Source: a virus. From it: 64,000 nucleotides of DNA. Numbering within the stretch: position 1 is the first letter of the stretch; each line of letters opens with the position of its first letter. Positions 21,257 through 39,326 of the stretch are shown in pieces. The translations under genes and the position numbers were made by a program. Below the pieces are notes generated by a model. It was not told the origin of the DNA. It ran no database searches and was given only the letters and a program-made list of their open reading frames with translations. The stretch is from positions 1 to 64,000 of the IMG/VR virus record IMGVR_UViG_3300027782_006468, one strand, 5' to 3'.

Positions 21257-23974
21257 TTATTCCTCTAAACACTTTTCAAATTGTTTCAAAACTTCATCAT
21301 CCGTTTGATATTTTTCATCATCAGAGGCAGGGTTTTTCAACACAATAACCCTAAAATCTAACTCCTTAGTTGGATATTTCTGTTGCCATCTTTTGTTTGG
21401 ATCTCTCAGATTCCTTTCTAATGAATACCCATTAAATCCTCCAGATGGCGGAGAAAGCCTCACTCTAAGTAAGTTATCTTTCTTTAATTCTTCTTCCCAT
21501 CTAAAAACATCTTCTTCCCAAAAGAATATTCTGTTTTTTTCTCCCATAGCATCTTCGGCTTCTATAGAGATATAATCTTTTCCATTTTTGGTTTTGTTTT
21601 TTTTTGTAGACAAAACTTTAATCTCGACAGGAACAATGCAATTTTCATGTTCCCGCAAAATTTGAAATGTATACCCCTTAAAATCAGAGCTTTTCTCCAA
21701 GTCATGTTCCCATGCAAATCCATAATATTTCAACTCACAAGATGAAACGCTTCTCAATTCTTTGGCAAATGTTTTATCTATCTGATGATCATCGGAATTG
21801 AAATCAACAAGTTTTGGCAAATCAAAAACCTTAGATTCATCAAACTTTTTAATCGCCCTTTGTCTTCTTGCCCATATTTTTTTCAATTCTTTTAACTTAT
21901 TGTAAGTTTTCTTGACCAACATTTTTTTATAAAATCTTTCAGTCTGAACTTCTACAAAGTCATCAGTGCCTTTGACCTTAATATATTCAACCTCAATTCT
22001 TCTTTCTCCAGTAGTACTTTCGACAATTTTTTCAGTTTCTATGATTTCATCAATATCATATTTTTTCCATTCTGGATCATCGAAAACATTATCGCCAACC
22101 AAATCAGTTAACTTTCTAGATTCTCCAACACAAATTTTAGAAAAATCTTCTTCGTAATTTTCCATGCCGTCTATAAATCTTTTTCTCTTGTCCTCTATTT
22201 TTTTAACAGCAGATTTATAATGTTCGTAAAATTTCCAAAGCGTAATTGGATCAGCATCTTTGAAGCAACGCAATCCAACAAGTGCTTTTAATATGCTAGC
22301 ATCTGTTCCAAACTTAAAAAGAAAATCTTCAAAATTTGCATATGGCTGATTATCAACAATTTTTTTCGCTGGTATTTCTCCTACGCCTTTAATGTTTGAC
22401 AATCCATAATAGATAACATCATCAACAAGAGAAAAGGTTTCTTTAGACTTATTTATATCGACCTTTTCCATCTCAACATCATGCCGTCTTGCCTCTATCT
22501 TGTAGTCCTTTATTTTATCGCTCAATGTTTCGCAGCTAAGAACAGCAGCGTAAAATTCTTGAGGATGATGAGCCTTTAGATATAATAATCGAGAAGAAAC
22601 ATAGGTATAAGCAACGGAATGACTCATATTGAAGCCATATTCTGCGAAAGATTTTATCTGTTCCCACAAGCTCTGAACTTCTTCCTGAGTAGCATCTAGA
22701 TTTTTTTGTCCATTTTCAATAAACATAATTTCATATTTCTTAAAAGCTTCTGCCTTCTTTTTAGAAATAGCTTTTCTTACAACTTCACAATCTCTTAAAG
22801 GAATTTCACCAACAATATTTAAAATTTTCATAATCTGTTCTTGAAAAACCATAACTCCATATGTGTTTCCAAGAATAGGCTCAATCAATGGATGTAAGGT
22901 GTATTCTTCTTCTTCTTTTTTTCTTTTCGTATATCTTTCATGCATTAACATGCCAAGAGGACCGGGGCGATACAAAGCCGTATATGCAACTAAATCTTCA
23001 AATCTATCAACACCACCAGCTTTTACCAATCTTCTTATGCCTTCTGAATCAAATTGAAATATGCATTTCAAATCACCTTCATTTGCCATAGCCAAAGATT
23101 TTTGATCATTTCTCCAAGAAGAAACATCTGTCCAATCAGAGTCATCATTGTTAGCACATATGCTTTTTATATTTTTTCTTTTTTTGACCAATTCGCAACA
23201 TGTAGATATTTGTTTTAAATTAGAAATTACAAGCAAATCAAATTTAACCAAACCTACTGGTTGTAAGTCTTGACCATTAAGACCTTCCACCCAAGCAGAT
23301 GCTTGCGGATTATCTTTTCTTTTTACTAATGGAACCATATCGGACAAAGGAACTGAACTTATAATCAAACCTCCAGCATGTTGACCCATACCTCTATTTC
23401 TATTGATTAACTTGTGTGCTGCCGCAGTTGCTTCGGGATGATCTTCACAATATTTTTTCAATTTTGGATACAATTCCATGGCAGATTCCCATGTCATAAC
23501 ATTCCCATCTTCATCTTTTGAATCAAGATTCTTGGTAAGTTCAAGTATTTCTTCTCTAGGATTGTCATGAACCCGTGCCATATCAATCAAGGCACTCTTC
23601 ATTCCAAAAGTTGTATAGTTGCTAATATTACAAACATATTCTTCACCAAAAGTTTCTAAAGCCCACTTGTTTTTTAAATAATCACGAACTTCAGACAAAT
23701 AATCCACATCAATATCTGGCATATCGCCTTGGACAAATTTTGGATCAACATCGACATTAAAATCATCACATATACCAAGAAGCCAAGGAACAATGATATT
23801 GTTTGTATTTTTAAATTTATTTTTCTCGCTAAATAATTTCAAAAAATATTCAGCTTTTCCTTGAACATCTATTTCTCGAAGCTCCCACTCAAGCCTTTTG
23901 CGATATTTTTCTCCAAGATTTCTTTTGTCGAAAACATGCCACAAACCTTTTTCTAATTTTTGAAAAGCATTCAT
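21257..23974 (-). CDS. dnaE: DNA polymerase III alpha, C-terminal (catalytic aspartate) half
   Basis: A 905-residue protein covering most of C-family polymerase. Residues 20-90 are a degenerate version of the start of the palm (RLEWELREI, AEYFL), lacking GPGRGS. MPDIDVDY carries the first two catalytic Asp; VKFDLL carries the third. QHAGGLII, the fingers (ALYRPGPLG, VFQEQIMKI, FNMSHSVAYTYVSS), a helix-hairpin-helix (NIKGVGEIPAKKI) and an OB-like domain (about 790-850) follow. The PHP domain and GPGRGS are on a separate gene at 37076. GGAG before the ATG at 23974 fixes the start. Overall length with the other half is near a normal DnaE. Confidence 0.9.
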   Translation of the reverse strand: MNAFQKLEKGLWHVFDKRNLGEKYRKRLEWELREIDVQGKAEYFLKLFSEKNKFKNTNNIIVPWLLGICDDFNVDVDPKFVQGDMPDIDVDYLSEVRDYLKNKWALETFGEEYVCNISNYTTFGMKSALIDMARVHDNPREEILELTKNLDSKDEDGNVMTWESAMELYPKLKKYCEDHPEATAAAHKLINRNRGMGQHAGGLIISSVPLSDMVPLVKRKDNPQASAWVEGLNGQDLQPVGLVKFDLLVISNLKQISTCCELVKKRKNIKSICANNDDSDWTDVSSWRNDQKSLAMANEGDLKCIFQFDSEGIRRLVKAGGVDRFEDLVAYTALYRPGPLGMLMHERYTKRKKEEEEYTLHPLIEPILGNTYGVMVFQEQIMKILNIVGEIPLRDCEVVRKAISKKKAEAFKKYEIMFIENGQKNLDATQEEVQSLWEQIKSFAEYGFNMSHSVAYTYVSSRLLYLKAHHPQEFYAAVLSCETLSDKIKDYKIEARRHDVEMEKVDINKSKETFSLVDDVIYYGLSNIKGVGEIPAKKIVDNQPYANFEDFLFKFGTDASILKALVGLRCFKDADPITLWKFYEHYKSAVKKIEDKRKRFIDGMENYEEDFSKICVGESRKLTDLVGDNVFDDPEWKKYDIDEIIETEKIVESTTGERRIEVEYIKVKGTDDFVEVQTERFYKKMLVKKTYNKLKELKKIWARRQRAIKKFDESKVFDLPKLVDFNSDDHQIDKTFAKELRSVSSCELKYYGFAWEHDLEKSSDFKGYTFQILREHENCIVPVEIKVLSTKKNKTKNGKDYISIEAEDAMGEKNRIFFWEEDVFRWEEELKKDNLLRVRLSPPSGGFNGYSLERNLRDPNKRWQQKYPTKELDFRVIVLKNPASDDEKYQTDDEVLKQFEKCLEE

Positions 23975-24048
23975 AAGTAACTCCAAATAAAATGAATTAA
24001 TATTGTATCACGAAATCTAAATAAATCTAGTCAACAAAAGGAGCATAT

Positions 24049-24420
24049 ATGAATTCATCAAAAGAACAGATATTAAAACTTTCTGGTTTGATAAACGAAC
24101 AACAAGCAGAATTGTCAATTGAAGAATTTGCAGAAAAAAGACATGCTGGTGCAGAAAAAATTGCAAATGCCGCAAAAGAAAAAGGTGGCGTTGCATTACT
24201 TACCTATGATCATTTTCATGTCAAATTACCTTATTACAAAAAAACATCAGAAGGAAAATTCAATCGTAAAAAACTTCAAGAAGAATATAAAGAGTTATGC
24301 TCTGAGCTTCATTCCTATATGGATGATATCGCAAGTATAGACCAATCTAAATTTCAAAAATTAGTTGGCAAAATAGAAGTTGTAGGAGAATTGCTTATAA
24401 AAAACAAAAAGAGCCTCTAG
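24049..24420 (+). CDS. Hypothetical protein, 123 aa
   Basis: Not recognised. Begins MNSSKEQILKLSGLINEQQAE, a predominantly helical protein with a histidine-containing middle (LTYDHFHVKLPYYKKTS). AAAGGAG lies 7 bases before the ATG. Its last codons and TAG stop lie in the arm of a terminator hairpin. Confidence 0.65.
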   Translation: MNSSKEQILKLSGLINEQQAELSIEEFAEKRHAGAEKIANAAKEKGGVALLTYDHFHVKLPYYKKTSEGKFNRKKLQEEYKELCSELHSYMDDIASIDQSKFQKLVGKIEVVGELLIKNKKSL

Positions 24421-24444
24421 AAAACTAGAGACTCTTTTTTTTTT
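24404..24444 (+). terminator. Rho-independent terminator
   Basis: A hairpin with AGAG and CTCTAG on the left and CTAGAG and CTCT on the right, an AAAA loop, one mismatch and a run of ten T. The stop codon of the 24049 gene lies inside the stem. The A-rich left flank makes it work in both directions in principle. Confidence 0.8.
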
Positions 24445-24662
24445 GACTTCGATTTAAAGTTGCTCAAGATCCGATCCCGATCTCGATTAATTTTGGCGAG
24501 TTACTAAGGAATGTGTGGAAAACTAAAACCCACACTTGAAAGTCAACACAACTTTATTCTTTCAGTCTATCTCTGTGCCAGAGTCTCAAATTTGCCAAAT
24601 TTAAGAATAAGAGTTTTGCACTTTAGTTTATTTAAAGAACACGAAGTCGTGGCTAAGATTGA
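24445..24662. other. Gene-free stretch of about 220 bases
   Basis: No convincing coding frame or tRNA on either strand. The only long frame on the plus strand (24511-24780) overlaps the neighbouring gene antisense and has no ribosome site. The stretch has repeated GATC/CGAT words near 24468-24487 and short hairpins (for example CACGA...TCGTG near 24641). A small RNA or replication/packaging signal cannot be excluded. Confidence 0.35.
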
Positions 24663-25169
24663 TTACTTATTTTCTGGTAATGGTTTAAATTCAATAATAG
24701 GCTTTGAATCTTTTATAGGATCAACTTGTGGCTTCGAAGAGTCTGTAGCCTTGCTTGGCATCGTCTTTTTTGGATTTTGACTAGCTCCGCTAACAGCAGG
24801 ACAATTCATATCATCACAAGCTTTGTGATAACCTTCTTCATAGGAAATGGTTCGAACATAGTCAACTTGATCCATTCCACGATAATATCCACTATGCCAA
24901 ATTGAAGAAATTTCATTTTCTTCTGGTTTTACATTATTGACAATAGATAATATTCCTTCAATCTTTCCTTGTCCTTTTGCATTTTCCATCATGCCATCAC
25001 GATGACTATTTATTTGACTGTATAATAACTCTGTGTAACCGCTTTGTTGCAAACGATCTTTTTGATCCATCAAGTTAGTAATATCCTTATATGTGTCAAT
25101 TCGATAAATTTGATACGCATTGACAATCAAAGAAAATCCCAAAACAGTACACAAAACATAATTGCTCAT
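24663..25169 (-). CDS. Membrane-anchored protein, 168 aa
   Basis: An N-terminal transmembrane helix (YVLCTVLGFSLIVNAYQIY) with the rest probably periplasmic. The soluble part contains a helical region and a Pro/Lys/Ser-rich tail (ASQNPKKTMPSKATDSSKPQ). GGAG precedes the ATG. Could be a lysis or injection-related protein; no motif supports a choice. Confidence 0.6.
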   Translation of the reverse strand: MSNYVLCTVLGFSLIVNAYQIYRIDTYKDITNLMDQKDRLQQSGYTELLYSQINSHRDGMMENAKGQGKIEGILSIVNNVKPEENEISSIWHSGYYRGMDQVDYVRTISYEEGYHKACDDMNCPAVSGASQNPKKTMPSKATDSSKPQVDPIKDSKPIIEFKPLPENK

Positions 25170-25273
25170 CCCACTCTCCTCAAATTAAATAGTCCTTAAA
25201 TTCAGTAACGAAAAGTAAAATATCACATTTTTTTTTTAAAATCAAGTCATTGAGACAATTATTTTCATATTTC

Positions 25274-25291
25274 TTCCTTATATATAAGGAA
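25274..25291. promoter_or_regulatory. 18-bp perfect palindrome upstream of acidic-repeat gene
   Basis: TTCCTTATATATAAGGAA, perfectly self-complementary, lies 25 bases before the ATG at 25317 and just ahead of the AGAGGAG ribosome site. It contains a TATA-rich centre that could be a -10 element, so an operator over a promoter is plausible. Not seen elsewhere in the window. Confidence 0.4.
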
Positions 25292-25316
25292 AGACATTCC
25301 GTAAGAGGAGATTACC

Positions 25317-26285
25317 ATGGCGTTTAAGAAATTTAGAGAATATTTAAAAGACGAAAAAAATATCGTTGAAAAACCAGAAGTGCAAAAAGTTCCCGACTAT
25401 AAAGGACCTTCTAGCTCTGCTCCACCACAAGCAAAAATGGATAAAAATGCTGGTGGTCATGGTTACAAGGGTTCTGCAAAGCCTTACAGTGCAGGGAAAA
25501 ATGCTGCCAATCCAAACAAATCAGAAAAAGGATTTGCACACGAAGGCGACAAAGATCTGAAATATGAACCTAAAGTCGATGTCGATACTAAAGATCCAGC
25601 AAAAGGCGAAGAACTTAAATCTTGGCATAAATCCAAAAGTGTATCTGAATGGCTCCAAAAAACACGCAAATTAAGCAATGCTGGCTTTATAAAAGGAATG
25701 CAAAATGAAGGTATTGCCTATGGAGTTATAAAAGAAACTATAACCGAATGTGCAAAATCAAATAGAAATGTCGCTCAACTTGTCATGGAAATGAAACGAA
25801 ATAAATTGCTTAAATCTTTGATTTCTGAGATTTGCAGTCACGAATCTGCAATTCCTGCGATTCTTTCAGAAATCAAAAAAAATAGTTTGTTCTTAAAGTA
25901 CTTAAATGAATTTCATGATATGGACCATGATGAAAATAATAGTGATGATGAAGAACCTATGGAAATGGATGATGAAGAACCTATGGAAATGGATGATGAT
26001 GAATCCATGGGTGATGACGATGAATCCATGGGTGATGACGATGAATCCATGGGTGATGATGATGAATCCATGGGCGATGACGATGAATCCATGGATGATG
26101 ACGATGAATCCATGGGTGATGATGATGAATCCATGGGTGATGATGATGAATCCATGGGTGATGACGATGAATCCATGGGCGATGATGATGACGAATCTGC
26201 TCTTTCCAACCCAATTGGAAAACACCATGCAAGAAAAGCATTGAAAAAAATGGGACCACCACCCGGTCCTTCTAGTGAATTCTAA
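25317..26285 (+). CDS. Acidic-repeat protein with T4-CTS-like leader
   Basis: A 322-residue protein. The leader MAFKKFREYLKDE resembles the capsid-targeting leaders of T4 internal proteins. A Pro/Lys/Gly-rich disordered part follows, then a helical domain (about 105-200) and a long acidic tract with two MEMDDEEP units and nine DDDESM[GD] heptads (about 226-288). The end is basic and Pro-rich. Strongly acidic, leader-bearing proteins form the scaffold core in T4 (gp67, gp68); a scaffold or internal head protein is proposed. AGAGGAG precedes the ATG, with an 18-bp palindrome upstream. Confidence 0.6.
   Translation: MAFKKFREYLKDEKNIVEKPEVQKVPDYKGPSSSAPPQAKMDKNAGGHGYKGSAKPYSAGKNAANPNKSEKGFAHEGDKDLKYEPKVDVDTKDPAKGEELKSWHKSKSVSEWLQKTRKLSNAGFIKGMQNEGIAYGVIKETITECAKSNRNVAQLVMEMKRNKLLKSLISEICSHESAIPAILSEIKKNSLFLKYLNEFHDMDHDENNSDDEEPMEMDDEEPMEMDDDESMGDDDESMGDDDESMGDDDESMGDDDESMDDDDESMGDDDESMGDDDESMGDDDESMGDDDDESALSNPIGKHHARKALKKMGPPPGPSSEF
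25992..26180 (+). repeat. 21-bp tandem repeat, nine copies (DDDESMG)
   Basis: Nine in-frame copies of a 21-base unit coding for DDDESMG (one copy ends in Asp). Units differ only at synonymous third positions (GAT/GAC, GGT/GGC) and the one Gly/Asp change. The near identity means recent expansion or homogenisation, and copy number probably varies between relatives. Confidence 0.9.
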
Positions 26286-26290
26286 AAAAA

Positions 26291-26319
26291 GCAAGCTCCG
26301 AAAGGGGCTTACTTTTTTA
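26291..26319 (+). terminator. Rho-independent terminator
   Basis: A seven-pair stem AAGCTCC/GGGGCTT with a GAAA tetraloop, followed by ACTTTTTT. It ends the acidic-repeat gene and separates it from the glycosyltransferase operon. Confidence 0.75.
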
Positions 26320-26349
26320 TAGCAGGAGGCTTTATCATAGCAGGAGGCT
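26319..26349 (+). repeat. Direct duplication of a ribosome-site segment
   Basis: ATAGCAGGAGGCT occurs at 26319-26331 and again at 26337-26349 (period 18). Both contain the strong AGGAGG. The second lies directly ahead of the ATG at 26351. The first may be a standby ribosome site or a leftover of a local duplication. Confidence 0.7.
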
Positions 26350-26350
26350 A

Positions 26351-27043
26351 ATGATTTTACATGGAAGTAAAGAAAAAATCTTAATTTGTATGCCCACCTA
26401 TCACTCTAAAATGGAGTGGCTTGTTCGATCTGTAGATTCATTGCACTTTCAAACATATAAGAATTTTGATTGCTATGTTGTAAAAGATGGATGCTCAGAA
26501 TCATGCACATTTACCAATTTTGAAAAAACATGTATTGAATGTGCAGATTGCAAAAAAACAAGAATATTTTTTGAAAAAGTTTGCAAGGCAGATTCTAGAT
26601 TTAAATTTTTTACATTGCCAATACATCATAGCGGTGCAGGTTGGGGTCCAAGAAATTTTGCCATCATGAATACACATCACAATTACATTGGATATCTTGA
26701 TGATGATAATTGGTATGAAAAAGATCATATAGAATTACTTTATAAAACAATAACTGAAACCAAAAGCGACATGTGCTACACAGGAACCAGACTTTACGAT
26801 CACAACAAAAAAGTTGTCGGAGAAAGAATTCATAATGATATTCCAAAAGCTGGTTATATAGATACTTCTGAGATTATGCACACTAGATACCTTATAGAAA
26901 AACACGGAGGTTGGCGCTATGTAAAAAAGTGCAATGATTGGGATATAGTTTCAAGATGGGTTCCCGATGTGAAATGGAGTCACACCAACAAGGTAACACT
27001 TAATTTCTTTCTGAGGGATGGATGCGGAATACACAGGAAATAA
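26351..27043 (+). CDS. Family 2 glycosyltransferase
   Basis: A 230-residue GT-A enzyme. The nucleotide-binding strand is ILICMPTYHSKMEWLVRSV (residues 10-28). The metal-binding motif is GYLDDDNWYEKDHI (about 115-128). A four-cysteine insertion (CTFTNFEKTC, CADCKK) between them may bind zinc. It transfers a sugar to an unknown acceptor. AGGAGG lies just before the ATG. Its end overlaps the adenylate-forming enzyme gene by 22 bases, and that gene is followed directly by the giant cysteine-rich protein, the obvious acceptor candidate (inference). Confidence 0.8.
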   Translation: MILHGSKEKILICMPTYHSKMEWLVRSVDSLHFQTYKNFDCYVVKDGCSESCTFTNFEKTCIECADCKKTRIFFEKVCKADSRFKFFTLPIHHSGAGWGPRNFAIMNTHHNYIGYLDDDNWYEKDHIELLYKTITETKSDMCYTGTRLYDHNKKVVGERIHNDIPKAGYIDTSEIMHTRYLIEKHGGWRYVKKCNDWDIVSRWVPDVKWSHTNKVTLNFFLRDGCGIHRK

Positions 27044-28302
27044 AACAGTTCATCCAGAAGTGGAAAAACTTCACCGATCCTTCCACGCAAATTCCTTACG
27101 ACTACAAACCAATATGCAAAGATTTACTTCTACACGATGAAGAACTTGTTGTCGAAACAATAGACATACTGAAAAGAAACATATCGTCTTGGGCAGAAAA
27201 AAATTCCGAAATTTATGAAAGTAAAAAAGCCTTTACTTTTTTGGAAAAAAAAGATCTCAACGATAAAAGCAAATGGTATGTAAAATCCTTGGAAAAGGAA
27301 TCCATGCCAATGAAAAGTAGCGGAAGCACCACTGGCGAGGGATTTGAATACTTGCGATGGGAACCTTTCCTTTATTTCATCGAAGGAGAAAACCACTACG
27401 ACCTTATTCTGGATGAGTACGAAATACCACAGAACCCACACATCATGTACTTTTTTAATTCCTCGTTCGGAAGTGGTCCAAGACACATAAACAACACATC
27501 GAAAAGCAAGAACTTCATGGAACACCACGGAACGAAAAGAACCGCAATGGTTCATTATGCAAACACAAAACTCCAAAAAGAAAAAGAAGAAGTATTCCAA
27601 AAATATCTACTCAAGTATTTAAATGCAAAAAAAATGGATGTAATATTCGCTCCCGGTCCACAAATAAAAAAAATATGCTCTTATATAAAAAAGGAAAACT
27701 ATAAGGGTAAACTGTGCAACTTGTTAAGTAATAGCAATGAGAAACTTCTAGATGAGGATGCTAAGTTCCTTCTGGAAAACAAATATGTATCACATATATG
27801 CGACCACATGCGGTGTTGGGATGGTGGTGCTTCATTCTTCACATGCAAAGACAAGAACTATCACTTGATGGACAACCTTTCTTGGTGTGTCGAAAACGAA
27901 GAAAGACTTATATCAACCGATTACTTCTCCTTGGCTTGTCCTTTCGTAAAATTCTGGAATGGCGATAGGTGCAAGATAGGCGAGAAATACCAGAGATGTT
28001 CTTGCGGAAGGTTGTACAGAGATTTTAAATTCTTAGAGAATCGACCCTTCGCCATAAAAGGGCATTCGATCAACGAGTATAAGAAAAAGCTCATGGAAAC
28101 TGGTCTTACAGAGATAAAACAGGTGAATTGCGGAAATGATTTCATAGAGATCGTATCTAATAAGGAAATAGATCCATCCAAGAAAGATGAAGTTGCCAAA
28201 ATATTTAAGTCTCACAAGTTGAGATTCAAGGTTATTCCAGACCAAATATTGGCATCGCAAAAAGTACAGAACAGAAATCCATCTGGAAAGGATGGAGACT
28301 AA
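27022..28302 (+). CDS. ANL-superfamily adenylate-forming enzyme (PaaK/CapK-like)
   Basis: A 426-residue protein. Residues 98-108 (SSGSTTGEGFE) form the phosphate-binding loop of ANL enzymes. FNSSFGSGPRH and the later IGEKYQRCSCGRLYRDF segment match the layout of phenylacetate-CoA ligase and CapK proteins, where a Cys/Gly-rich loop comes before the hinge. The C-terminal 100 residues form the small lid domain. Such enzymes activate a carboxylate as an adenylate and pass it to CoA or another acceptor. The substrate cannot be read from sequence. The start overlaps the glycosyltransferase; the TAA is followed at once by the ATG of the giant protein. Confidence 0.75.
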   Translation: MRNTQEIKQFIQKWKNFTDPSTQIPYDYKPICKDLLLHDEELVVETIDILKRNISSWAEKNSEIYESKKAFTFLEKKDLNDKSKWYVKSLEKESMPMKSSGSTTGEGFEYLRWEPFLYFIEGENHYDLILDEYEIPQNPHIMYFFNSSFGSGPRHINNTSKSKNFMEHHGTKRTAMVHYANTKLQKEKEEVFQKYLLKYLNAKKMDVIFAPGPQIKKICSYIKKENYKGKLCNLLSNSNEKLLDEDAKFLLENKYVSHICDHMRCWDGGASFFTCKDKNYHLMDNLSWCVENEERLISTDYFSLACPFVKFWNGDRCKIGEKYQRCSCGRLYRDFKFLENRPFAIKGHSINEYKKKLMETGLTEIKQVNCGNDFIEIVSNKEIDPSKKDEVAKIFKSHKLRFKVIPDQILASQKVQNRNPSGKDGD

Positions 28303-31300
28303 ATGATAGATCCAAAACTGGTAGAAAATTGGAATATAATTTTCGCACTTGCCGACAAAGCTTGTGGGCATTTCGCAACATATGAAGCAATAGTCCTTGT
28401 GCCACGACCTTGTACCGGAGGGTCAAGTGCTTATTGGACTCTTGGTACTTCTTGTCCAGATGGTTGCACATCTTCTCCTCCTTCTGAATTGCCAACAAAT
28501 CCTCCATGCGATCCTAATTACCCTGATAATGGAACGGAAAATGACATAATCGGGTGCTGCGGAGGGATAGTTGAAGTCGAATGCACTGGAACCTGCTGTA
28601 ACTGTGGTGGAGTTCAATGCGAACCATCAGAGACATGCTGCGACAATGTTTGCGTGGACTTGCAAACGGATCATGACCATTGTGGCGGTTGCCCTATAGT
28701 TTGCGAACCTTCAGAAAGCTGCAAGAATGGTGTTTGCAAAGGCGCTTGTGCTTCGAGCAACTGCTCATGGACTTGGAGCGAAGGCTGTCAGGCTGATTGT
28801 GCTTATGTCCTCCTTGATGGTGTGTATGTGCAGAATCAATTTTGCACAGAAGGATCAAATTGCATTTGTCCTGCCGCTCCTGCCGTAACCGAATCATCAC
28901 CACTTTATGTATACATTTCTTGTGTTGGAAATCCAAGACCATCGGGTGTTTGGTCACAGACTTCGACATGCCCACAGGGATGCACCTGTCCAGAAGAAGC
29001 ACCAACGACAAATGGAACGACAAATGGTCAAGTTATAACCCATGAATGCGTCAGTTGCTCCCCTCCATGCGGAGAAGGACAAGACTGCTGCGGTGGCGAA
29101 TGCAAAAACATATATGAAGACAGCAATAATTGTGATGGTTGCGGAAATGTTTGCCCTGAAGCAACACCAACTTGCTGCAATGGCGAGTGCTGTGTGTCAA
29201 ACAATTGTTGTTCGGTTGATGGAACAAATACTTGTATTGATGTTATGAATGATCCAAATCATTGTGGTGATTGCATAACATTTTGCAGCGGTCCAGAAAC
29301 TACAACGCCACAAAAGTGTTGCCATGGCGAATGCAAATTCACAGAAACAGATAATGAAAATTGCGGATCTTGTGACTTTCCTTGTCCTGTCGGATACACA
29401 TGCTGTTTTGGTGTATGCAAAGAACTATATGGTGATGATCGCTTGAACTGTGGCGATTGTGGTAAAACTTGCCCTGTCGGAGAGTTTTGTAAAGATGGCA
29501 ATTGCGTAGACCCTTGTACGCTGGAGGAATGCTCATACACATGGGATGCACAAACATGCACATTCATGTACAATAACCCAAATGGGTATAAAATATGTTC
29601 TGGAACTGCGGTCATGAAATGGGTTCCAACTGGACCTCCTAGCGACCCTGATTCAATAACTGGTACATGTCCGGGTCGTTGGGATACAGTAGTTCCATGC
29701 GAATATTCAGATAACTGCGGTTGTATAAATGGGTATGGGTTTGAACAAACTATTGGACCATGCTGGGAATATACACAAGAATGCTATTGTGGTCAGAGAA
29801 ATGATGTAATCACTCCATGTGGCGCAATTTTCCCTGTTCTAGATCCAGTTATAGGTTGGGCAGGAGGAACATGGGAACAGTTAACCGACTGCGATGGTTG
29901 TCCAAAACCAGTAGATCCTCCTGCAATACCAGCCTGTATGGGACAAACTTACAGTTTCAACTGTGCAGGATCTTGGATCTACAGACCATGCCCAAGCTGC
30001 GTATGCCCAATAAACGAGCCACTTCGAGAAGGAACACCAAATGAAAAAGTTTCTTCTCCCTGTAAAAACTGTGATCCAGCTTGTGGTGCCAATCAAAAGT
30101 GTTGCAATCATGTTTGTAAAAACATACTTACAGATGTTCGTAATTGCGGAGATTGCGGAAGAGATTGCGGATCTGCTGCGGGAACCGCTTGCTGTAGGGG
30201 AACATGCGTAAACACACTTACAGAAGAACTTTACTGCGGAGGTTGCAATACCGTTTGTGCATGGTCAGAAACTTGTTGCAATGGTTTTTGCAAAGATACT
30301 CACACAGACCCTGCTAACTGTGGTAGTTGCGGACATCCTTGTGCTGCTGGCGAAGTTTGCTGTAATAGTTTTTGCGTAAACACAAATACCGACAGAAATA
30401 ACTGTGGAAGTTGCCCATTTGTATGTCCCAACGCAGATAAGTGCATTGACGGAAGATGCGTTCCATGCGACCCCCCATGTCTAGAAGCTGGAACCGCTTG
30501 CTGCAACAATTCATGCATCGACATATTGTCTGACGAGAACAACTGCGGTGGTTGCAACATACCCTGTGCTGGCAAATGCTGCAATGGGTCTTGCGTATTA
30601 GATTTGAACACCATGTACAACTGTGGTGATTGCGGAATAGCGTGTCCGCAAATGATCAACCAGATCAATCTGTGGCAGTGCTGCAATGGTCAGTGCAAGA
30701 ATCTAAAAACTGATCCAGAAAACTGCGGTTTTTGCGGAAGAGTATGTCAAGAGCCTCCGGGTGACACATTTAAAGTTCCAAAATGTTTCTTGGGAAACTG
30801 TGCAGAACCAGAATGTGTATGTTTGGGAGGGGAAACCCCCGGACCTGACGATGTTGTTTTCGTATCCACATGCCTTGGGAACACGATAAGCTGTGAGGGG
30901 TCTTGTTATTTTGAGAATGTGGGCGGAAGTTGGGTTCTTCATGAAGAGCCGGGCGGAACTGGATTTTCTGGATCTTGCGGAAAAGAACCAGACTACACAT
31001 ATTGTGTTGATGACAAATATGCCTGTGTTGGAGATATATATTATTGCGTAAAACCCATAGAAGGACAAGATATGCCAACTTATTGTATACCAAAACCATC
31101 ATTTGACCCATTAGCACAAGCACTAATCGGATCGTATATCGGAGCAGAAAACTGTGCTGCTGGTTGCAGCGGGGATGGAAGCTGTCCAGACGGTTGTGCA
31201 AACGGATTGACCTGTTGTAATACGGAATGCGTGGACACGCAAACGGACAGTGCCAATTGCGGTGGTTGTGGTGGCGGTCCTTGTGCCTCTGATGAGACTT

Positions 31301-34300
31301 GCAAAGACGGAGCTTGCACGGGTTGCCCTTCTCCATGTGCCGAAGACGAATCGTGCTGCGAAGGAGGAACGACATGCTGCAAGGTCTGCTGTAATGATGG
31401 GTGTTGTGCGGATACCGATCATTGCGGAGAAGGTGGTGCATGCACTCCATGCGAATGTACCGCTGGACAAACCTGCTGCGGTCCTAATTGTTGCGATCCG
31501 GGAAAAGAATGCTGTGGTTCTGGAAGTAGTGCAACATGTTGCACCGGAGATCAATACTGCGATGGAACTGGACACTGCGCATCATGCAACCCAGTATGCT
31601 ACCCGAACGAAACATGCTGCGGTGCGTCTGGATGTATAGCAAACAAGTGTGGCGACTGTCCTAATTCGTGTCCAGAAGGAATAGTTTGCTGCGGTCTTCC
31701 TCACCACGAGGTGTGTTGCGGCGAAGGTCAAACTTGTGTCGATAATAAATGTTACGGATGTACGCCTCCTTGTTCGGAAAGTCAAGATTGCTGCGATGAG
31801 GTGTGTACCGAACTTGGAACCGACACAGATTGTACTGGTTGCGGTGCAGCTTGCGGAGAAGGAACAAAATGTTGCGGTGGCTCATGCATAGATGTGATGG
31901 ATGATGTGAACAATTGTGGTGGTTGCGGTGTCGTGTGCGAGGAAGATGGTGCAACTCCTCTTTGCTGCGATGGAACTCCGACAGCAAATGGAACGAATGA
32001 AAATTGCTTGAGTTGCGGAGACACAGCCGATCCAGACAATGCGACAAACCCTACATCATGCTGTCCTAAAGCAGTTGTTGTTGCTGGCGCTCCAGACACC
32101 TCGACTTTCTTTGTTACCGCTACAAACAGTGACGACAAGAATTGCGGTGGTTGCGGAAATGTTGCTGACACATCGCCACAAGTGCAAGAAAAATGCTGTG
32201 CGGGTGAAATCGTTAGCCTTTTGACTGATCCAGACAACTGTGGAGGGTGTGGCGTTAGGGTTGTTGATCCTATGAGTTGCTGTCCAAGTTGGGGTCCGCC
32301 AAATCAGTTTGGCGATCTACCAACACCAACCTCTGGTCCAGTAAACACACAAACAGACAACGACCATTGCGGCGGTTGCAACATCCCATGCAATCCAATA
32401 GAAACTGGTGATGACTGCCCACCTCCCGGCGCTCCACCAACGACAAAATGCAAGGATGGCACATGTGTGCCATGCGGAACATGCAAGCTTCCGACAGAAC
32501 AACAACAAGCACAATTGTTGGGATCTCAACCAACTGTATGGGGGTCACACACGACCATACCATGCACCTATGACGGATGTCCTATGCCGGTAACCGATCC
32601 GCCAACTCCTGCCCCTCCGGGGAAAACATGCTTCGGTGGCTGTGACTACAAAGCGGTAGGAAATGTTGGAAACCTGTCATGGGAACTGGTTGGTTGCGAA
32701 TGCTACGACTCTTGCACACTTCCAGAATGCAACGCCTCAAATCCACATGCCACTCCATGTCCAAGTGTTGGAACCTGTTCTGGAGAAGGACCTTGCGGCG
32801 GATGCCTTTATGACGACTATGACCATCCTTCTGCATACAAATGCTTCGCGCCATGGGGTCATGATACTGTTAGCTGCGGGAGTCTCTATAACTATAGTAG
32901 TACATTTGGCTATTGCTGTACGAAAGACGCAAATCATCCAAATGGCGGAGTTCTATGTCTTAGTGGCAGTTGTTCAGGTGCTGCGGGAGACTGCGAACCT
33001 TGCGGCGGATCATGTGCCGCAGGACTTACATGTTGCGGGGTTTTTCCGAATGATGTGTGTTTGAACCTGAAAACGGATGAAAGTCATTGCGGATCATGTA
33101 CGAATGTTTGTGCCGCAGGAGAGACATGCTGTAATAGCTCATGTAAAAATACCAACACAGACAATAACAATTGTGGCGGTTGCGGTATAAAATGCAGTGG
33201 AGTTTCGGAATGTTGCAATGGCAGCTGCAAAGTTCTAAACACTCCAACTAATTGTGGTGCTTGCGGAATAGTATGTACTGTCCTTGAACCACTCTGTTGC
33301 AACAATAACTGCACACCGTCTGATGAATTCAACTGCGGAGGGTGCGGAAGAACATGTGATGCTGGTGAAAAATGTTGTGATGGTGAATGCACAGAGGTGA
33401 TGGGCGATGACGAATCTAACTGCGGTGATTGTGGCTTTACTTGTGCTTCTAGTGGAACTTGCTGCTCTGGCGAATGTATCGAAAACCAATGCGGAACATG
33501 TCCTACTGCATGTACCGAAGGTCAGGGATGTTGTGGTACGCCTCCAAATCTAACTTGCACCGATCTTGGAACAGACGAAAACTGTATCAGTTGTGGCAAT
33601 GCTTGCGCTGCAGGAACGAAATGTTGCTTTGATGGAGTTGAAAACTTATGCATATCAGTAATGGGTGCTGATAAAAATAACTGTGGCGATTGTAACATAA
33701 TTTGTGAAAATAATGAACGATGTGAAGACGGTGTATGCATAAATTTAAGTGAAGGGTGTGATCCGGAATGTGTTGAGGGAGAAGAATGTTGCGAAGGAAC
33801 TGCCTGTTGTAGTCTGCCAGAATTTCAATGTTGCTCTGGCTCATGTACTGCCGTTTTCTCTTTCCAAACAGATAGTTCCAACTGCGGAAGTTGTGGAAAC
33901 GCTTGTGCTGCTGGCGAGCAATGTTGCAATGGCGATTGTATTGCCACTAGCTCTTTCCAAACAGATGAATCTAATTGCGGAACTTGTGGTAACGCTTGTT
34001 CCGGAAGCCAAACTTGTTGCTCTGGCTCATGTATCGCCACTAGCTCTCTCCAAACAGATGAAGCAAACTGCGGAACTTGCGGAAACGCTTGTGGTGCTGG
34101 TGAAACATGTTGCTCTGGTGTTTGTAAAGCACTTCAAACAGATGAAGCTAATTGCGGAACTTGCGGAAACGCTTGTGGTGCTGGTCAAGAATGTTGTAGT
34201 GGTGTTTGCAAAGCCGTACAAACTGATAGTTCCAACTGCGGAACTTGCGGAAACGCTTGTTCCGGAAGCCAAACATGTTGCTCTGGATCATGTATCGCCA

Positions 34301-36267
34301 CTAGCTCTCTCCAAACAGATGAAGCAAACTGCGGAACTTGCGGAAACACTTGTTCCGGAAGCCAAACATGTTGCTCTGGATCATGTATCGCCACTAGCTC
34401 TCTCCAAACAGATGAAGCAAACTGCGGAACTTGCGGAAACGCTTGTGCTGCTGGTGAACTATGTTGTTCTGGTGTTTGCAAAGCCGTACAAACAGATGAA
34501 GCTAATTGCGGAACTTGCGGAAACGCTTGTGCTGCTGGCGAACTATGTTGTTCTGGTGTTTGCAAAGCCGTACAAACAGATGAAGCTAATTGCGGAACTT
34601 GCGGAAACGCTTGTTCCGGAAGCCAAACTTGCTGCTCTGGATCATGTATCGCCACTATCTCTCTCCAAACAGATGAAGCAAACTGCGGAACTTGCGGAAA
34701 CACTTGTTCCGGAAGCCAAACATGTTGCTCTGGCTCATGTATCGCCACTAGCTCTCTCCAAACAGATGAAGCAAACTGCGGAACTTGTGGTAACGCCTGT
34801 AGTGCTGGCGAACTATGTTGTGGTGGTGTTTGTAAAATCGTACAAATAGATGAAGCTAACTGCGGAACTTGTGGTAACACTTGTGGTCTTGGTCAAGAAT
34901 GTTGTAGTGGTGTTTGTAAATCATTACAAACAGATGAATTTAATTGCGGAACTTGCGGAAACACTTGTGGTGCTGGCGAACTATGTTGTTCTGGTGTTTG
35001 CAAAACCGTACAAACAGATGTAATAAACTGCGGAACTTGTGGTAACACTTGTGGTCTTGGTCAAGAATGTTGTAGTGGTGTTTGCACAGTATTTCAAATA
35101 GATGAAGACAATTGCGGAAGTTGTGGAAACGCTTGTGCTGCTGGAGAAACTTGTTGTAATAGCGTTTGCACAGTATTACAAACAGATGAAGGTAATTGCG
35201 GAATTTGCGGAAACATGTGTGGTGCTGGTCAAGAATGTTGCTCTGGTGTTTGTAAATCAGTACAAACAGATGAAGCTAATTGCGGAACTTGTGGAACTGT
35301 ATGTGGTGCTGGTCAAGAATGTTGCTCTGGTGTTTGCAAATCAATACAAACAGATGAAGAAAATTGTGGAACATGTGGAACTGCATGTGCTTCTGGCTAC
35401 ACATGTTGCTCTGGTGTTTGTAGAAACACAGCAACCGATCTCAGCAATTGTGGAACATGCGGAAGCTCTTGTAGCGGAACATGTTGCAACGGCTTTTGCA
35501 AAGCGACATATGAGGATGAATTAAATTGTGGTGATTGCGGAATAGAATGTGCTGTTGGCGAAACATGTTGCTATAGCATCCTTTTGAACACTGGAGTTTG
35601 CAAAGCCGTACTAACAGATGAAGCTAATTGTGGAACTTGTGGAAACACTTGTGCTGCTGGTTACACATGTTGCTCTGGTGTCTGCAAAGCACTTCAAACA
35701 GATGAAGCTAATTGCGGAACTTGCGGAAGTGTATGTTCTGCTGGCTACACATGTTGTGATGGTGTCTGCAAAGCACTTCAAACAGATGAAGCAAACTGTG
35801 GAACTTGCGGAAACGCTTGTGCTGCTGGAGAAACTTGTTGCTCTGGTGTTTGTGCAAATACAGAAACAAGTTCATCTAATTGTGGATCTTGCGGACACGC
35901 TTGTGCTGCTGGAGAAACTTGCGAAGAAGGAATTTGCTCTCTGCCTCCACTAACAATAAAATTAGTTTTCCGTGCTTTCGCATGTGCAAGTAATTTTTCA
36001 AATCTTTCAAGTGAGCTTTCTGCTGGATCTAGAAGTGTTAGCTTCACAATCACTGTCAGTGGAACTACTTTTGCCAGTGGTTCTGTTTCAAACATTGGAC
36101 CCGGAGGAGTTGCAGCAACCTTAGCATCAATTACGATTCCAACAGGAACATCATTTAATATAAATATAAGTGGATATGCTGGATCTGCAATTATTGGTAG
36201 TACTAGAGCATCTGGTCAACTGACTTATACTGGTGCTGTTAAAACTGCAGATAATAATGCATGTTAA
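28303..36267 (+). CDS. Giant cysteine-rich repeat protein, 2654 aa
   Basis: About fifty copies of a 30-40 residue module run from residue ~70 to ~2540. Consensus: CC.G.C....TD..NCG.CG..C..G..CC, six or more cysteines per module. The first two thirds hold diverged modules broken by other Cys-rich domains (for example around 400-530 and 1390-1520); the last third has almost identical copies with EANCGTCGNAC. The final 100 residues (TIKLVFRAFACASNFSNLS onward) are a Ser/Thr-rich beta domain ending in Cys. No signal peptide or membrane helix. Similar repeats occur in proteins of myxobacteria and other environmental bacteria. A disulfide-stabilised long fibre or adhesin on the virion is the favoured guess. 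Base composition is richer in G+C than its surroundings. Confidence 0.85.
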   Translation: MIDPKLVENWNIIFALADKACGHFATYEAIVLVPRPCTGGSSAYWTLGTSCPDGCTSSPPSELPTNPPCDPNYPDNGTENDIIGCCGGIVEVECTGTCCNCGGVQCEPSETCCDNVCVDLQTDHDHCGGCPIVCEPSESCKNGVCKGACASSNCSWTWSEGCQADCAYVLLDGVYVQNQFCTEGSNCICPAAPAVTESSPLYVYISCVGNPRPSGVWSQTSTCPQGCTCPEEAPTTNGTTNGQVITHECVSCSPPCGEGQDCCGGECKNIYEDSNNCDGCGNVCPEATPTCCNGECCVSNNCCSVDGTNTCIDVMNDPNHCGDCITFCSGPETTTPQKCCHGECKFTETDNENCGSCDFPCPVGYTCCFGVCKELYGDDRLNCGDCGKTCPVGEFCKDGNCVDPCTLEECSYTWDAQTCTFMYNNPNGYKICSGTAVMKWVPTGPPSDPDSITGTCPGRWDTVVPCEYSDNCGCINGYGFEQTIGPCWEYTQECYCGQRNDVITPCGAIFPVLDPVIGWAGGTWEQLTDCDGCPKPVDPPAIPACMGQTYSFNCAGSWIYRPCPSCVCPINEPLREGTPNEKVSSPCKNCDPACGANQKCCNHVCKNILTDVRNCGDCGRDCGSAAGTACCRGTCVNTLTEELYCGGCNTVCAWSETCCNGFCKDTHTDPANCGSCGHPCAAGEVCCNSFCVNTNTDRNNCGSCPFVCPNADKCIDGRCVPCDPPCLEAGTACCNNSCIDILSDENNCGGCNIPCAGKCCNGSCVLDLNTMYNCGDCGIACPQMINQINLWQCCNGQCKNLKTDPENCGFCGRVCQEPPGDTFKVPKCFLGNCAEPECVCLGGETPGPDDVVFVSTCLGNTISCEGSCYFENVGGSWVLHEEPGGTGFSGSCGKEPDYTYCVDDKYACVGDIYYCVKPIEGQDMPTYCIPKPSFDPLAQALIGSYIGAENCAAGCSGDGSCPDGCANGLTCCNTECVDTQTDSANCGGCGGGPCASDETCKDGACTGCPSPCAEDESCCEGGTTCCKVCCNDGCCADTDHCGEGGACTPCECTAGQTCCGPNCCDPGKECCGSGSSATCCTGDQYCDGTGHCASCNPVCYPNETCCGASGCIANKCGDCPNSCPEGIVCCGLPHHEVCCGEGQTCVDNKCYGCTPPCSESQDCCDEVCTELGTDTDCTGCGAACGEGTKCCGGSCIDVMDDVNNCGGCGVVCEEDGATPLCCDGTPTANGTNENCLSCGDTADPDNATNPTSCCPKAVVVAGAPDTSTFFVTATNSDDKNCGGCGNVADTSPQVQEKCCAGEIVSLLTDPDNCGGCGVRVVDPMSCCPSWGPPNQFGDLPTPTSGPVNTQTDNDHCGGCNIPCNPIETGDDCPPPGAPPTTKCKDGTCVPCGTCKLPTEQQQAQLLGSQPTVWGSHTTIPCTYDGCPMPVTDPPTPAPPGKTCFGGCDYKAVGNVGNLSWELVGCECYDSCTLPECNASNPHATPCPSVGTCSGEGPCGGCLYDDYDHPSAYKCFAPWGHDTVSCGSLYNYSSTFGYCCTKDANHPNGGVLCLSGSCSGAAGDCEPCGGSCAAGLTCCGVFPNDVCLNLKTDESHCGSCTNVCAAGETCCNSSCKNTNTDNNNCGGCGIKCSGVSECCNGSCKVLNTPTNCGACGIVCTVLEPLCCNNNCTPSDEFNCGGCGRTCDAGEKCCDGECTEVMGDDESNCGDCGFTCASSGTCCSGECIENQCGTCPTACTEGQGCCGTPPNLTCTDLGTDENCISCGNACAAGTKCCFDGVENLCISVMGADKNNCGDCNIICENNERCEDGVCINLSEGCDPECVEGEECCEGTACCSLPEFQCCSGSCTAVFSFQTDSSNCGSCGNACAAGEQCCNGDCIATSSFQTDESNCGTCGNACSGSQTCCSGSCIATSSLQTDEANCGTCGNACGAGETCCSGVCKALQTDEANCGTCGNACGAGQECCSGVCKAVQTDSSNCGTCGNACSGSQTCCSGSCIATSSLQTDEANCGTCGNTCSGSQTCCSGSCIATSSLQTDEANCGTCGNACAAGELCCSGVCKAVQTDEANCGTCGNACAAGELCCSGVCKAVQTDEANCGTCGNACSGSQTCCSGSCIATISLQTDEANCGTCGNTCSGSQTCCSGSCIATSSLQTDEANCGTCGNACSAGELCCGGVCKIVQIDEANCGTCGNTCGLGQECCSGVCKSLQTDEFNCGTCGNTCGAGELCCSGVCKTVQTDVINCGTCGNTCGLGQECCSGVCTVFQIDEDNCGSCGNACAAGETCCNSVCTVLQTDEGNCGICGNMCGAGQECCSGVCKSVQTDEANCGTCGTVCGAGQECCSGVCKSIQTDEENCGTCGTACASGYTCCSGVCRNTATDLSNCGTCGSSCSGTCCNGFCKATYEDELNCGDCGIECAVGETCCYSILLNTGVCKAVLTDEANCGTCGNTCAAGYTCCSGVCKALQTDEANCGTCGSVCSAGYTCCDGVCKALQTDEANCGTCGNACAAGETCCSGVCANTETSSSNCGSCGHACAAGETCEEGICSLPPLTIKLVFRAFACASNFSNLSSELSAGSRSVSFTITVSGTTFASGSVSNIGPGGVAATLASITIPTGTSFNINISGYAGSAIIGSTRASGQLTYTGAVKTADNNAC
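33841..35890 (+). repeat. Near-identical tandem DNA repeats in the giant gene
   Basis: About 90-120-base units coding for the QTDEANCGTCGNAC module are almost identical at DNA level, in two interleaved types: SGSQTCCSGSCIATSS and AAGELCCSGVCKAV. Words such as GATGAAGC and TGCGGAACTTG recur dozens of times. The upstream modules of the same gene are far more diverged, so this part expanded or was homogenised recently. Confidence 0.85.
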
Positions 36268-36302
36268 AAAAACAGGCTTGAAAATCAAGCCTGTTTTTTT
36301 TC
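36266..36302. terminator. Strong bidirectional terminator
   Basis: A perfect ten-pair stem AACAGGCTTG/CAAGCCTGTT with a five-base loop, flanked by A's on the left and T's on the right. It ends the giant gene on the plus strand and, read the other way, the minus-strand operon ending at 36321. Confidence 0.9.
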
Positions 36303-36320
36303 TTTAATTTATAATTTTTT

Positions 36321-36608
36321 CTATTCTTTGTAGGCTACCCATCGGTTACGAACAAATAAAAGATTTGCAAAAAACCCGCAAAAGGCAGAAATGAGATTTC
36401 CCGCAAACGGAACATATAGTTCGCCTACTGGATTAAGCACGAATGAAATTCCCAATGAAAACCAAAAACTGCTGCATTCATGGCAGAGCATTGGAACATT
36501 AACATACGGTATCTTGGCTACCAAGTTTCTAAAAGGTCGTGCAACATCGGTATCAGACCAAGCGTAAGCGACACCAAGACATGTGACCAAATAAATCAAA
36601 AACATCAT
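36321..36608 (-). CDS. Small membrane protein with CxxC, 95 aa
   Basis: Three hydrophobic segments (MMFLIYLVTCLGVAYAW, CSSFWFSLGISFVLN, LISAFCGFFANLLFV) and a CHEC motif before the second. The layout recalls the DUF1360 family of small membrane proteins, of unknown role. The ATG at 36608 overlaps the stop of the upstream gene; the GTG at 36623 is an alternative. Confidence 0.5.
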   Translation of the reverse strand: MMFLIYLVTCLGVAYAWSDTDVARPFRNLVAKIPYVNVPMLCHECSSFWFSLGISFVLNPVGELYVPFAGNLISAFCGFFANLLFVRNRWVAYKE

Positions 36609-37024
36609 AGGAAATATACCCACATATAGTCAAATTCTCGAACAACAGAGAAACTTCTGAATGTTTTTCCAACAATAGTCTTGTTGAAATTAGCCCAAGC
36701 TTCATCACCAAGCTGAACCTTGAATACTTTGCCACCAATAGCATTGTTTACTCTTTTTAGCCTAATAGCTTCGAGTTCTTTGACTATCGCAGCCTTGTCC
36801 TTGTAATACTTTTCCAAGATATTCGGATCAGTAGTCACTTTATCTGAAAAGAACTTGCCAACCTTACCTCTGCATGAGCAGTTTGGGTTGGTCTTTAATG
36901 TTGTTAGGTCGGCAAGAATATCTGGAAATTCCGCCTTTAGTTCAGCGAATGAACTTTCGTCCTTGATGATCATATAGATGAGATCTGGCATCGTGCCAAG
37001 ATCTACAGTGATTGTAGTTTCCAT
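36605..37024 (-). CDS. Hypothetical protein, 139 aa
   Basis: Not recognised. Begins METTITVDLGTMPDLIYMII. Mixed alpha/beta, with a CSC pair near residue 50 and a conserved-looking basic helix (ELEAIRLKRVNNAIGG). It lies between the polymerase N-terminal gene and the small membrane protein, in the same operon. Its relation to replication is unknown. Confidence 0.55.
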   Translation of the reverse strand: METTITVDLGTMPDLIYMIIKDESSFAELKAEFPDILADLTTLKTNPNCSCRGKVGKFFSDKVTTDPNILEKYYKDKAAIVKELEAIRLKRVNNAIGGKVFKVQLGDEAWANFNKTIVGKTFRSFSVVREFDYMWVYFL

Positions 37025-37075
37025 AAAATTAATATAGTTTTATTGTTTTATTTTTTTGATTTTTAAAAATATTTT

Positions 37076-38438
37076 TTACAAATCAAAACAAATAGATCTA
37101 CCGCCTCTAGCCTCAGACATGAATCGACTAAACAAAAGACCTTCATATACTGGATCTACATCAGTAATTCCAAGACAATAGCAAATTAAAGAACCACAAG
37201 CACTTCCCCTTCCGGGTCCAACAGCTTGAGTTCCATCGCCACCTATATTTTCTCTGCACCACCTTCTTGCTTCATCAGTCATCATCTTTTGAATAAGAAA
37301 ATATGTACTAAAACCTTTACGAGTTATAAGGCTCAACTCTTCAATTATTCTATTTTTATACTCTGTAGTCATTGGCAAATTACGATGTTTAAATCCTCTC
37401 AAGACTTCATCCTTAAGCCTTTGGTCACAATCTGGAAATATAGGTAGTTTCAGACTTCTATCTAATTCGACACCTTTTGCTTTACGACAAATCTCTACTG
37501 TATTTTTTTTAGCTTCGCAAAAAATTTCATAAGGAATAATATCTTTATAATCACTCAGCCACTTTTCATTAAGTTCTTCCTCAGATTTCATCCATAAATT
37601 AGCATCCTGCAATTCGAAGAAATCCTGCATTGAATCTTCTTTCATTGCCCTTTGAATTTCTTTTAATGTTCTGTTGGTCTGAACCATCAACATAAGTCTT
37701 TGCAAGTGACTATCTTCTTTACGGCAATAATGACAATCTTGCGTAAGAATAATCTTCAATCCAAATTTCTGCTTTGCTTTAACAATAAAAGCGTCATAAG
37801 GTTTTTGTTTAACAAAATCTAAAAGCATAATTTCAAGCAGATAATTTTCTTTACCAAACATCTGAATGTATCGTTCTATCATTTGAAATCCAGCTTCTTC
37901 TCCGCCAGCATCAAATGCTCTGCCAACTTCGCTGTTATAGCAACAACTTGTAAAAAATAAGCCTTCTTTATGCTTCTCAAGTTGTTCGTAATTTACTCTT
38001 GGCTTTCTATAAAATCCTTTCGTCCAACCCCAAGATGTCAAACGAACAAGATTTTTATATCCAGTTTCATTGTATGCTATGGCTAATAAGTGTGGACTTG
38101 CTCTCAGTTCCAATAATTCACTTGGAGAGAGAGATTCAGAAAATTTTTGCATGTCTGACAAAGAAGAGGATTGCGGTTGCAATCTATTTACATAAAGTTC
38201 CGCAGCGAATATGGGAGAAAGTTTATTTTTCCCATATTTATCACATATCTTTTCGCATGCTTTAATTTGTCTGGGAACTGCTCCCAACATGCCATGATCA
38301 CTAATTGTAAGAAAATTTTGATTTATTTCTGTAGCACGAACCGAATATTCTTCGCATGTTCCAAGCCCATCGAGGACGGAAAAATCGGAGTAACTAATGA
38401 AGGTGGAGATGTTCAAAACCAACAATCTCCACCTTCAT
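37076..38438 (-). CDS. dnaE: DNA polymerase III alpha, N-terminal (PHP + palm start) half, frame broken near the 5' end
   Basis: From about 38395 an open frame of some 440 residues covers the PHP domain (SVLDGLGTCEEYSVRA, FLTISDHGMLGAV, ILTQDCHYC) and the start of the palm with AVGPGRGSACGSL and ITDVDP, stopping after RGGRSICFDL, just where MPDIDVD should follow. The only good ribosome site (AAAGGAG) serves an ATG at 38438 in another frame: MKVEIVGFEHLHLH, then TAG. HLHLH is the first PHP metal motif and joins correctly to SDFSVLDG if the seven bases at 38390-38396 are removed. Otherwise a +1 shift or the TTG at 38425 would be needed. The matching half is at 21257. Confidence 0.85.
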
Positions 38439-38447
38439 TGTTACTCC
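38387..38447 (-). promoter_or_regulatory. Large hairpin enclosing ribosome site and start of dnaE N-terminal half
   Basis: On the minus strand GGAGTAACAATGAAG...GGAGAT (38447-38425) is followed, after a 14-base loop, by its reverse complement (38410-38387), with one extra A as the only irregularity. The arm includes the Shine-Dalgarno GGAG and the ATG; the other arm codes for the PHP motif HLHLH. Fold-back would hide the start signals from ribosomes. Part of the pairing depends on the seven-base insertion at 38390-38396. Confidence 0.75.
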
Positions 38448-39253: not shown

Positions 39254-39257
39254 AAAA

Positions 39258-39280
39258 CCTCCAATATATTTAGTTGGAGG
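39258..39280 (-). promoter_or_regulatory. Hairpin hiding the ribosome site of the HNH gene
   Basis: CCTCCAA and TTGGAGG (seven pairs, nine-base loop) flank the start region; the GGAGG is the Shine-Dalgarno of the HNH endonuclease, four bases before its ATG. Stem-loops that block translation early in infection are known for T4 homing endonucleases such as I-TevI. Confidence 0.65.
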
Positions 39281-39326
39281 CTTCACAATTATTTCAATCT
39301 TTTAGACGGTTCTGCAGAATTAAAAG

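Follow-up and report, generated by a model that had tools for sequence, protein, structure and literature searches.

The window analysed here covers the first 64 kb of the virus record IMGVR_UViG_3300027782_006468 (IMG/VR; 76,939 bases). It carries the parts of a DnaE-type (DNA polymerase III alpha) polymerase as two separate minus-strand genes, which we call the N-half and the C-half. In the list of open reading frames (ORFs), both lie 13 kb apart, where an initial annotation had put them. The Pfam family PF07733 is divided cleanly between the two: its positions 3-98 match at 37106-37417 and its positions 100-259 match at 23231-23725, and both matches exceed the cut-off by a wide margin. The coordinates of the individual features are collected in Table 1.

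The N-half has the order of domains of a C-family DnaE, a PHP domain (profile search, 7.1e-30) followed by a palm with GPGRGS. As the initial annotation described, it terminates after ARGGRSICFDL, and the catalytic motif MPDIDVD is absent downstream in every frame. The relatives end in the same way. In all 39 aligned N-halves the terminus consists of RGG(R/K) and then a short strand that is hydrophobic and has no catalytic Asp, and the tails past RGG are only about 5-40 amino acids long. GPGRGS is likewise kept in 39 of 39, with few variants (e.g., GPARGS). According to the alignments, the N-half is the better conserved of the two halves, GPGRGS included; its ratio of nonsynonymous to synonymous substitution rates (dN/dS) is 0.083, with dS 1.0, when the window is compared with the relative L006.

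The C-half, which likely starts at ATG 23974 with a Shine-Dalgarno (SD) sequence, has the three catalytic Asp, the fingers and the HhH domains of a C-family DnaE. It matches PF17657 (2.8e-39) and PF14579; the fingers and HhH domains are recognized by profile and the OB fold by structure comparison. When it is aligned with whole DnaE, MPDIDVDY and VKFDLL fall on E. coli D401, D403 and D555, which agrees with the earlier assignment of the catalytic residues. All aligned C-halves retain the three Asp and lack GPGRGS. In front of the catalytic motif is a head of approximately 85 residues, which had been taken for a worn copy of the palm-entry segment kept intact in the N-half. For its helical first part this is statistically sound: the first 46 residues or so match N-half residues 331-377 in a profile-profile comparison (hhalign, E-value 1.3e-6). 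The statistical support does not extend to the remainder, where the next 40 or so residues form a conserved NxNNLL..YLLG segment in place of the GPGRGS region. A hidden Markov model of the head, compared with all ORFs of the window and with fused proteins, picks up its own gene, the N-half and fused DnaEs, and nothing else. For the C-half dN/dS is 0.164 (dS 1.5), and for the head alone 0.156.

Table 1. Features of the divided DnaE and of the region upstream of the N-half (window coordinates)
Feature	Position	Strand	Basis
N-half main frame (PHP, GPGRGS-containing palm entry, degenerate catalytic strand)	37076..38389	-	ORF; PHP; PF07733 3-98; PDB matches
C-half (palm-entry-like head, catalytic palm, fingers, HhH, OB)	21257..23974	-	ORF; PF17657; PF07733 100-259; PF14579; OB matches
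GPGRGS (GS motif, expected nucleotide-triphosphate grip), N-half only	37202..37219	-	Sequence; conserved in N-half alignment
RSICFDL end, the catalytic strand position, both catalytic Asp positions hydrophobic	37079..37099	-	39 sequences
C-half head, worn palm entry without GPGRGS	23723..23974	-	Profile comparisons
MPDIDVD, first two catalytic Asp	23702..23722	-	Aligned to E. coli D401/D403; invariant in C-half alignment
Third catalytic Asp (VKFDLL)	23237..23239	-	Aligned to E. coli D555; C-half alignment
N-half leader, encoding MKVEIVGFEHLHLH with the HxH motif of PHP and ended by an in-frame stop	38397..38438	-	ATG after SD AAAGGAG
7-nucleotide gap TAGTTAC, leader to main frame; missing from uninterrupted relatives	38390..38396	-	Relatives compared
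RNA hairpin spanning SD, ATG, leader and gap; folding energy -39.4 kcal/mol, z -8.4	38387..38447	-	Folding; covariation in relatives
HNH homing-endonuclease-like ORF directly upstream of N-half	38459..39286	-	PHROG 559 HNH, 1.8e-17

How general is this arrangement? Scans of IMG/VR proteins identify 61 loci with an N-half and 61 loci with a C-half. At least 42 distinct pairs are found in huge-phage contigs, on a common strand and with the C-half downstream of the N-half. The spacing is 0.9-9.6 kb in the fetched loci. It is larger in the window (13 kb) and in a record of 527 kb (about 15 kb). Among 38 relative records, 32 have both parts, five have only an N-half and end within about 10 kb downstream of it, and one (G038) has only a fragmented N-half. 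Records of 245, 343, 381, 458 and 527 kb contain exactly two DnaE pieces each. The complementary decay of the palm-entry segment proposed in the initial annotation is found in all relatives examined (39 N-halves and 22 C-half heads aligned). The same ends recur in all of them, which rules out that the palm break is a frameshift or a sequencing error. The frames, whose possible loss in relatives had been a concern, remain open, with purifying selection on both halves. A second intact polymerase gene had been a further concern, and here the outcome is mixed. No whole DnaE is found in the split-type records searched, the five large ones included, and the C-family DnaE of these phages is thus not one polypeptide. 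However, most records do contain a PolA-like (family A) protein of 420-478 amino acids in which the Asp of motif A and of motif C are conserved. No family B polymerase (PF00136) is found in 15 records and no sliding clamp (PF02767) in ten. In the window's own record, just outside the window, there is a small family A polymerase-like gene (L070, 4255-5649).

The initial annotation had also suggested a search for relatives with a fused gene, and four such phages are found in the same clade, LR756511 (595 kb) among them, each with one DnaE of 1183-1195 amino acids. As expected for genes in pieces, these sister proteins are contiguous at the break. The PolA-like gene is present in the fused-DnaE phages as well, and therefore the split pair fills the slot that the fused DnaE holds in its sisters. 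The two halves give different trees. In the N tree the four fused phages are nested within the split clade (approximately unbiased test, p-value 0.014 against a split clade, for a group named after the tree was seen), whereas the C tree favours a split clade in 72% of bootstraps. Given this disagreement, the fused form might be ancestral or might be a re-fusion. A single origin of the split would be the simplest reading, because every split lineage examined has the same C-half head. The overlap could have come either from duplication of the whole gene or from partial duplication during fission.

C-family enzymes have a Pol beta-like palm, in which the nucleotide triphosphate is bound by the GS loop and two metal ions are bound by the Asp triad. 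The reading we favour, with a probability of about three in four, is that one C-family (DnaE-type) polymerase is made as two chains, by way of palm-entry duplication, complementary loss and non-covalent assembly. Division of the gene would have been accompanied by duplication of the palm-entry segment, with the catalytic Asp strand lost from the N-copy and the GPGRGS loop lost from the C-copy. The N-chain would then supply the PHP domain and the GPGRGS loop, the expected grip on the incoming nucleotide's triphosphate, and the C-chain would supply the three catalytic Asp and the thumb, fingers, HhH and OB domains. From the sequences, an active site formed by two chains is likely; we infer that the halves join non-covalently and are active. 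The ancestral event behind the overlap may plausibly have involved a mobile element at the catalytic motif.

Single-chain AlphaFold models of both halves match Pol III alpha structures (N-half, Z 29.7; C-half, Z 21.7). Apart from the extreme N-terminus of the N-half, model confidence is lowest mainly in stretches of the palm (C-half 82-94 and 193-249; N-half 434-449). These may be the parts that would need the partner chain, which gives the two-chain enzyme weak support. Several points weigh against it. The low confidence in the palm may come from shallow alignments (21 and 39 sequences). Most of the phages also have a PolA-like gene that retains both catalytic Asp motifs, so DnaE may not be their sole replicase. 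Finally, the N-half begins with a frame-interrupted leader, described below, which could make its synthesis inefficient or leave it without the HxH motif.

Could the gene have been split cleanly at the catalytic motif by a homing endonuclease or intron, with the head regained later, e.g., by recombination with another DnaE copy? There is a case of a break at the same motif. In a Staphylococcus phage SPbeta-like genome (NC_029119; L083, 3962-8359), dnaE_2 and dnaE_1 are divided as ..ELPKM / DIDID by approximately 460 nucleotides that contain a GIY-YIG-like remnant and look intron-like by eye, with no Rfam match for this insert. Homing endonucleases are also known to split phage genes (PMC2988022). 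However, the SPbeta-like gene has no overlapping head, and the palm break in the window has no endonuclease; the HNH gene is located at the 5' end of the N-half instead. We therefore regard such a history as unlikely, at perhaps one chance in a few. It is less likely still that the halves do not belong to one enzyme, the C-half being active alone or dead, the N-half having another role and the PolA-like protein being the replicase. The motif A and motif C Asp kept by that protein in most records would fit such roles, as would the conserved NxNNLL motif that the C-half head has of its own. Yet it is the N-half that is more conserved, the halves co-occur wherever enough sequence is present, and in the fused relatives the same PolA-like protein accompanies a single whole DnaE. 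Joining of the halves by protein or RNA trans-splicing is highly improbable: genuine split inteins do occur elsewhere in the C-half of relatives, but no pair has intein residues at the palm break, the short N-half tails leave about 5-40 amino acids after RGG, and the C-half head is a conserved protein domain and not an intron.

The relatives do carry inteins at other sites. In their N-halves, full inteins are found at residue 74, at residue 231 and between GRG and S of the GS motif; L036 (9932-12535) has one of the last kind. In their C-halves, split inteins are found between RPGPLN and C and between YGFN and S. The C-half of L012, L019, L026, L028 and L036 is divided again in this manner, and therefore some relatives need three gene products for one DnaE. 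These inteins are easily recognised, and a split intein at the palm break is rejected since nothing like them is present there. The window has no Rfam match to a group I or group II intron.

The N-half leader is of interest in its own right. The N-half likely starts at ATG 38438, behind the SD sequence AAAGGAG. The frame that opens there runs for 14 codons up to a TAG, and the PHP domain goes on in a different frame 7 nucleotides further along. About 30 aligned relatives are uninterrupted, while about 25 have similar gaps. The interruptions fall into four classes: (i) gaps of 5-8 nucleotides that start with a stop codon, after HLHLH; (ii) gaps of 40-47 nucleotides with a perfect hairpin, after HLHLH(T/S)D; (iii) gaps of 6 nucleotides with an in-frame stop ahead of LDG; (iv) group I introns at the LDG site. 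Where 5-8 nucleotide gaps directly follow HLHLH, at least 12 of 14 pairs form between the leader and the HLHLH codons in every case, compared with a mean of 7.4 of 14 in uninterrupted genes. Six pairs of the hairpin are changed on both sides, and none of 500 shuffles does equally well. CAY versus TAY codons are found in the 7-nucleotide gap class only; other classes vary. The leader also appears to be under selection as protein, because the HLHLH codons show only synonymous changes in 17 interrupted sequences, as do the codons for G and E in the unpaired loop. Gap lengths of all three frame classes occur, which rules out consistent +1 or -1 frameshifting.

Hairpin-coupled gaps at HLHLH, many with stop codons, are found in L006, L010, L011, L017, L025, L036, L039, L044, L047 and L049, and further ones in L053, L054, L056, L012, L015, L024, L048, L062, L108 and L128. 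The group I introns, in L040, L057 and L133, are about 225 nucleotides long and lie between DFSL and LDG in the 5' part of the N-half. HNH homologues are located directly upstream of the N-half gene in L034, L036, L048, L055, L057, L108, L125 and L128, which include several gap classes plus two uninterrupted ones.

It is tempting to hypothesize, at close to even odds, that these are mobile, hairpin-coupled coding gaps at the HLHLH site of PHP that ribosomes skip, and that introns may decay there into translational-bypass elements. Short gaps of 5-8 nucleotides, longer ones of 40-47 nucleotides and true group I introns all occur at or near the same site, several of them beside an HNH homing endonuclease. 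For the leader alone, it is also possible, though somewhat doubtful, that the gap stays untranslated and that translation begins beyond it, at a non-standard codon, so that the protein lacks the HxH motif. The hairpin covers the SD sequence and the ATG, and matched take-off and landing codons are not present in all variants, both of which would suit a downstream start. Such a start would not account for the purely synonymous variation of the leader and loop codons in interrupted genes, nor for the same protein being kept by the uninterrupted and group I intron versions.

The DNA between the halves has features of its own. In the window, a 2654 amino acid long, cysteine-rich repetitive protein is encoded on the opposite strand (28303-36267, +). 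No transfer-messenger RNA (tmRNA) gene is found in the window, but several relatives have one between the halves (L012, 11959-12302; L040, 13703-14061; L052, 12769-13120; L057, 16721-17096; L133, 6739-7073).

In the literature searched, no full-length split DnaE is described beyond a minimal form (Iyer et al. 2021, PMC7824862), and we did not find there a split, PHP-bearing, full-length DnaE with overlapping palm entries, its spread in huge phages or the interrupted leader. If the enzyme is active, dozens of huge phages would have a DnaE whose nucleotide grip and catalytic metals are on different chains, and the fused sister proteins permit a direct comparison. Such natural sequences would show at which points a replicative polymerase can be divided and in what way a fission that leaves an overlap is tolerated. 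The interrupted leader, in turn, would give a set of candidate ribosome-bypass signals that is rare and naturally diverse.

The closest known system is the minimal split Pol III alpha of group 2.2 jumbo phages (PMC7824862). There too, two proteins from distant genes divide the nucleotide triphosphate-binding part from the Mg- and template-binding part. That enzyme lacks the other Pol III domains and occurs beside a family B polymerase, whereas the DnaE described here is full-length, with PHP, fingers, HhH and OB, is accompanied by a PolA-like protein and no family B polymerase (15 records), and has an overlapping degenerate palm entry. The split-intein DnaE of cyanobacteria and phages is also made from two genes, but here the intein at this break is absent. 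Other essential phage enzymes come in pieces as well (reviewed in PMC2988022): the family B polymerase gp43A/gp43B of Aeromonas phages, whose halves copurify and are active, NrdA of Aeh1 and the T4 topoisomerase 39/60. Homing endonucleases are associated with those systems; here the HNH gene adjoins the 5' end of the N-half and not the palm break. They also belong to other enzyme families, the passages of that review consulted describe no overlap between pieces, and the pieces in the window are 13 kb apart. For the leader, the relevant comparison is the translational bypass of T4 gene 60, which was possibly derived from a group I intron (PMC5009743). Both have a stop directly after the last codon, a stem-loop at the site, a homing endonuclease nearby and a possible link to group I introns. 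They differ in that the leader gap is 5-8 or 40-47 nucleotides long, lies in a DnaE gene and has no consistent matched landing codon. The N-half leader gap resembles the gene 60 bypass and is a candidate for another of its kind.

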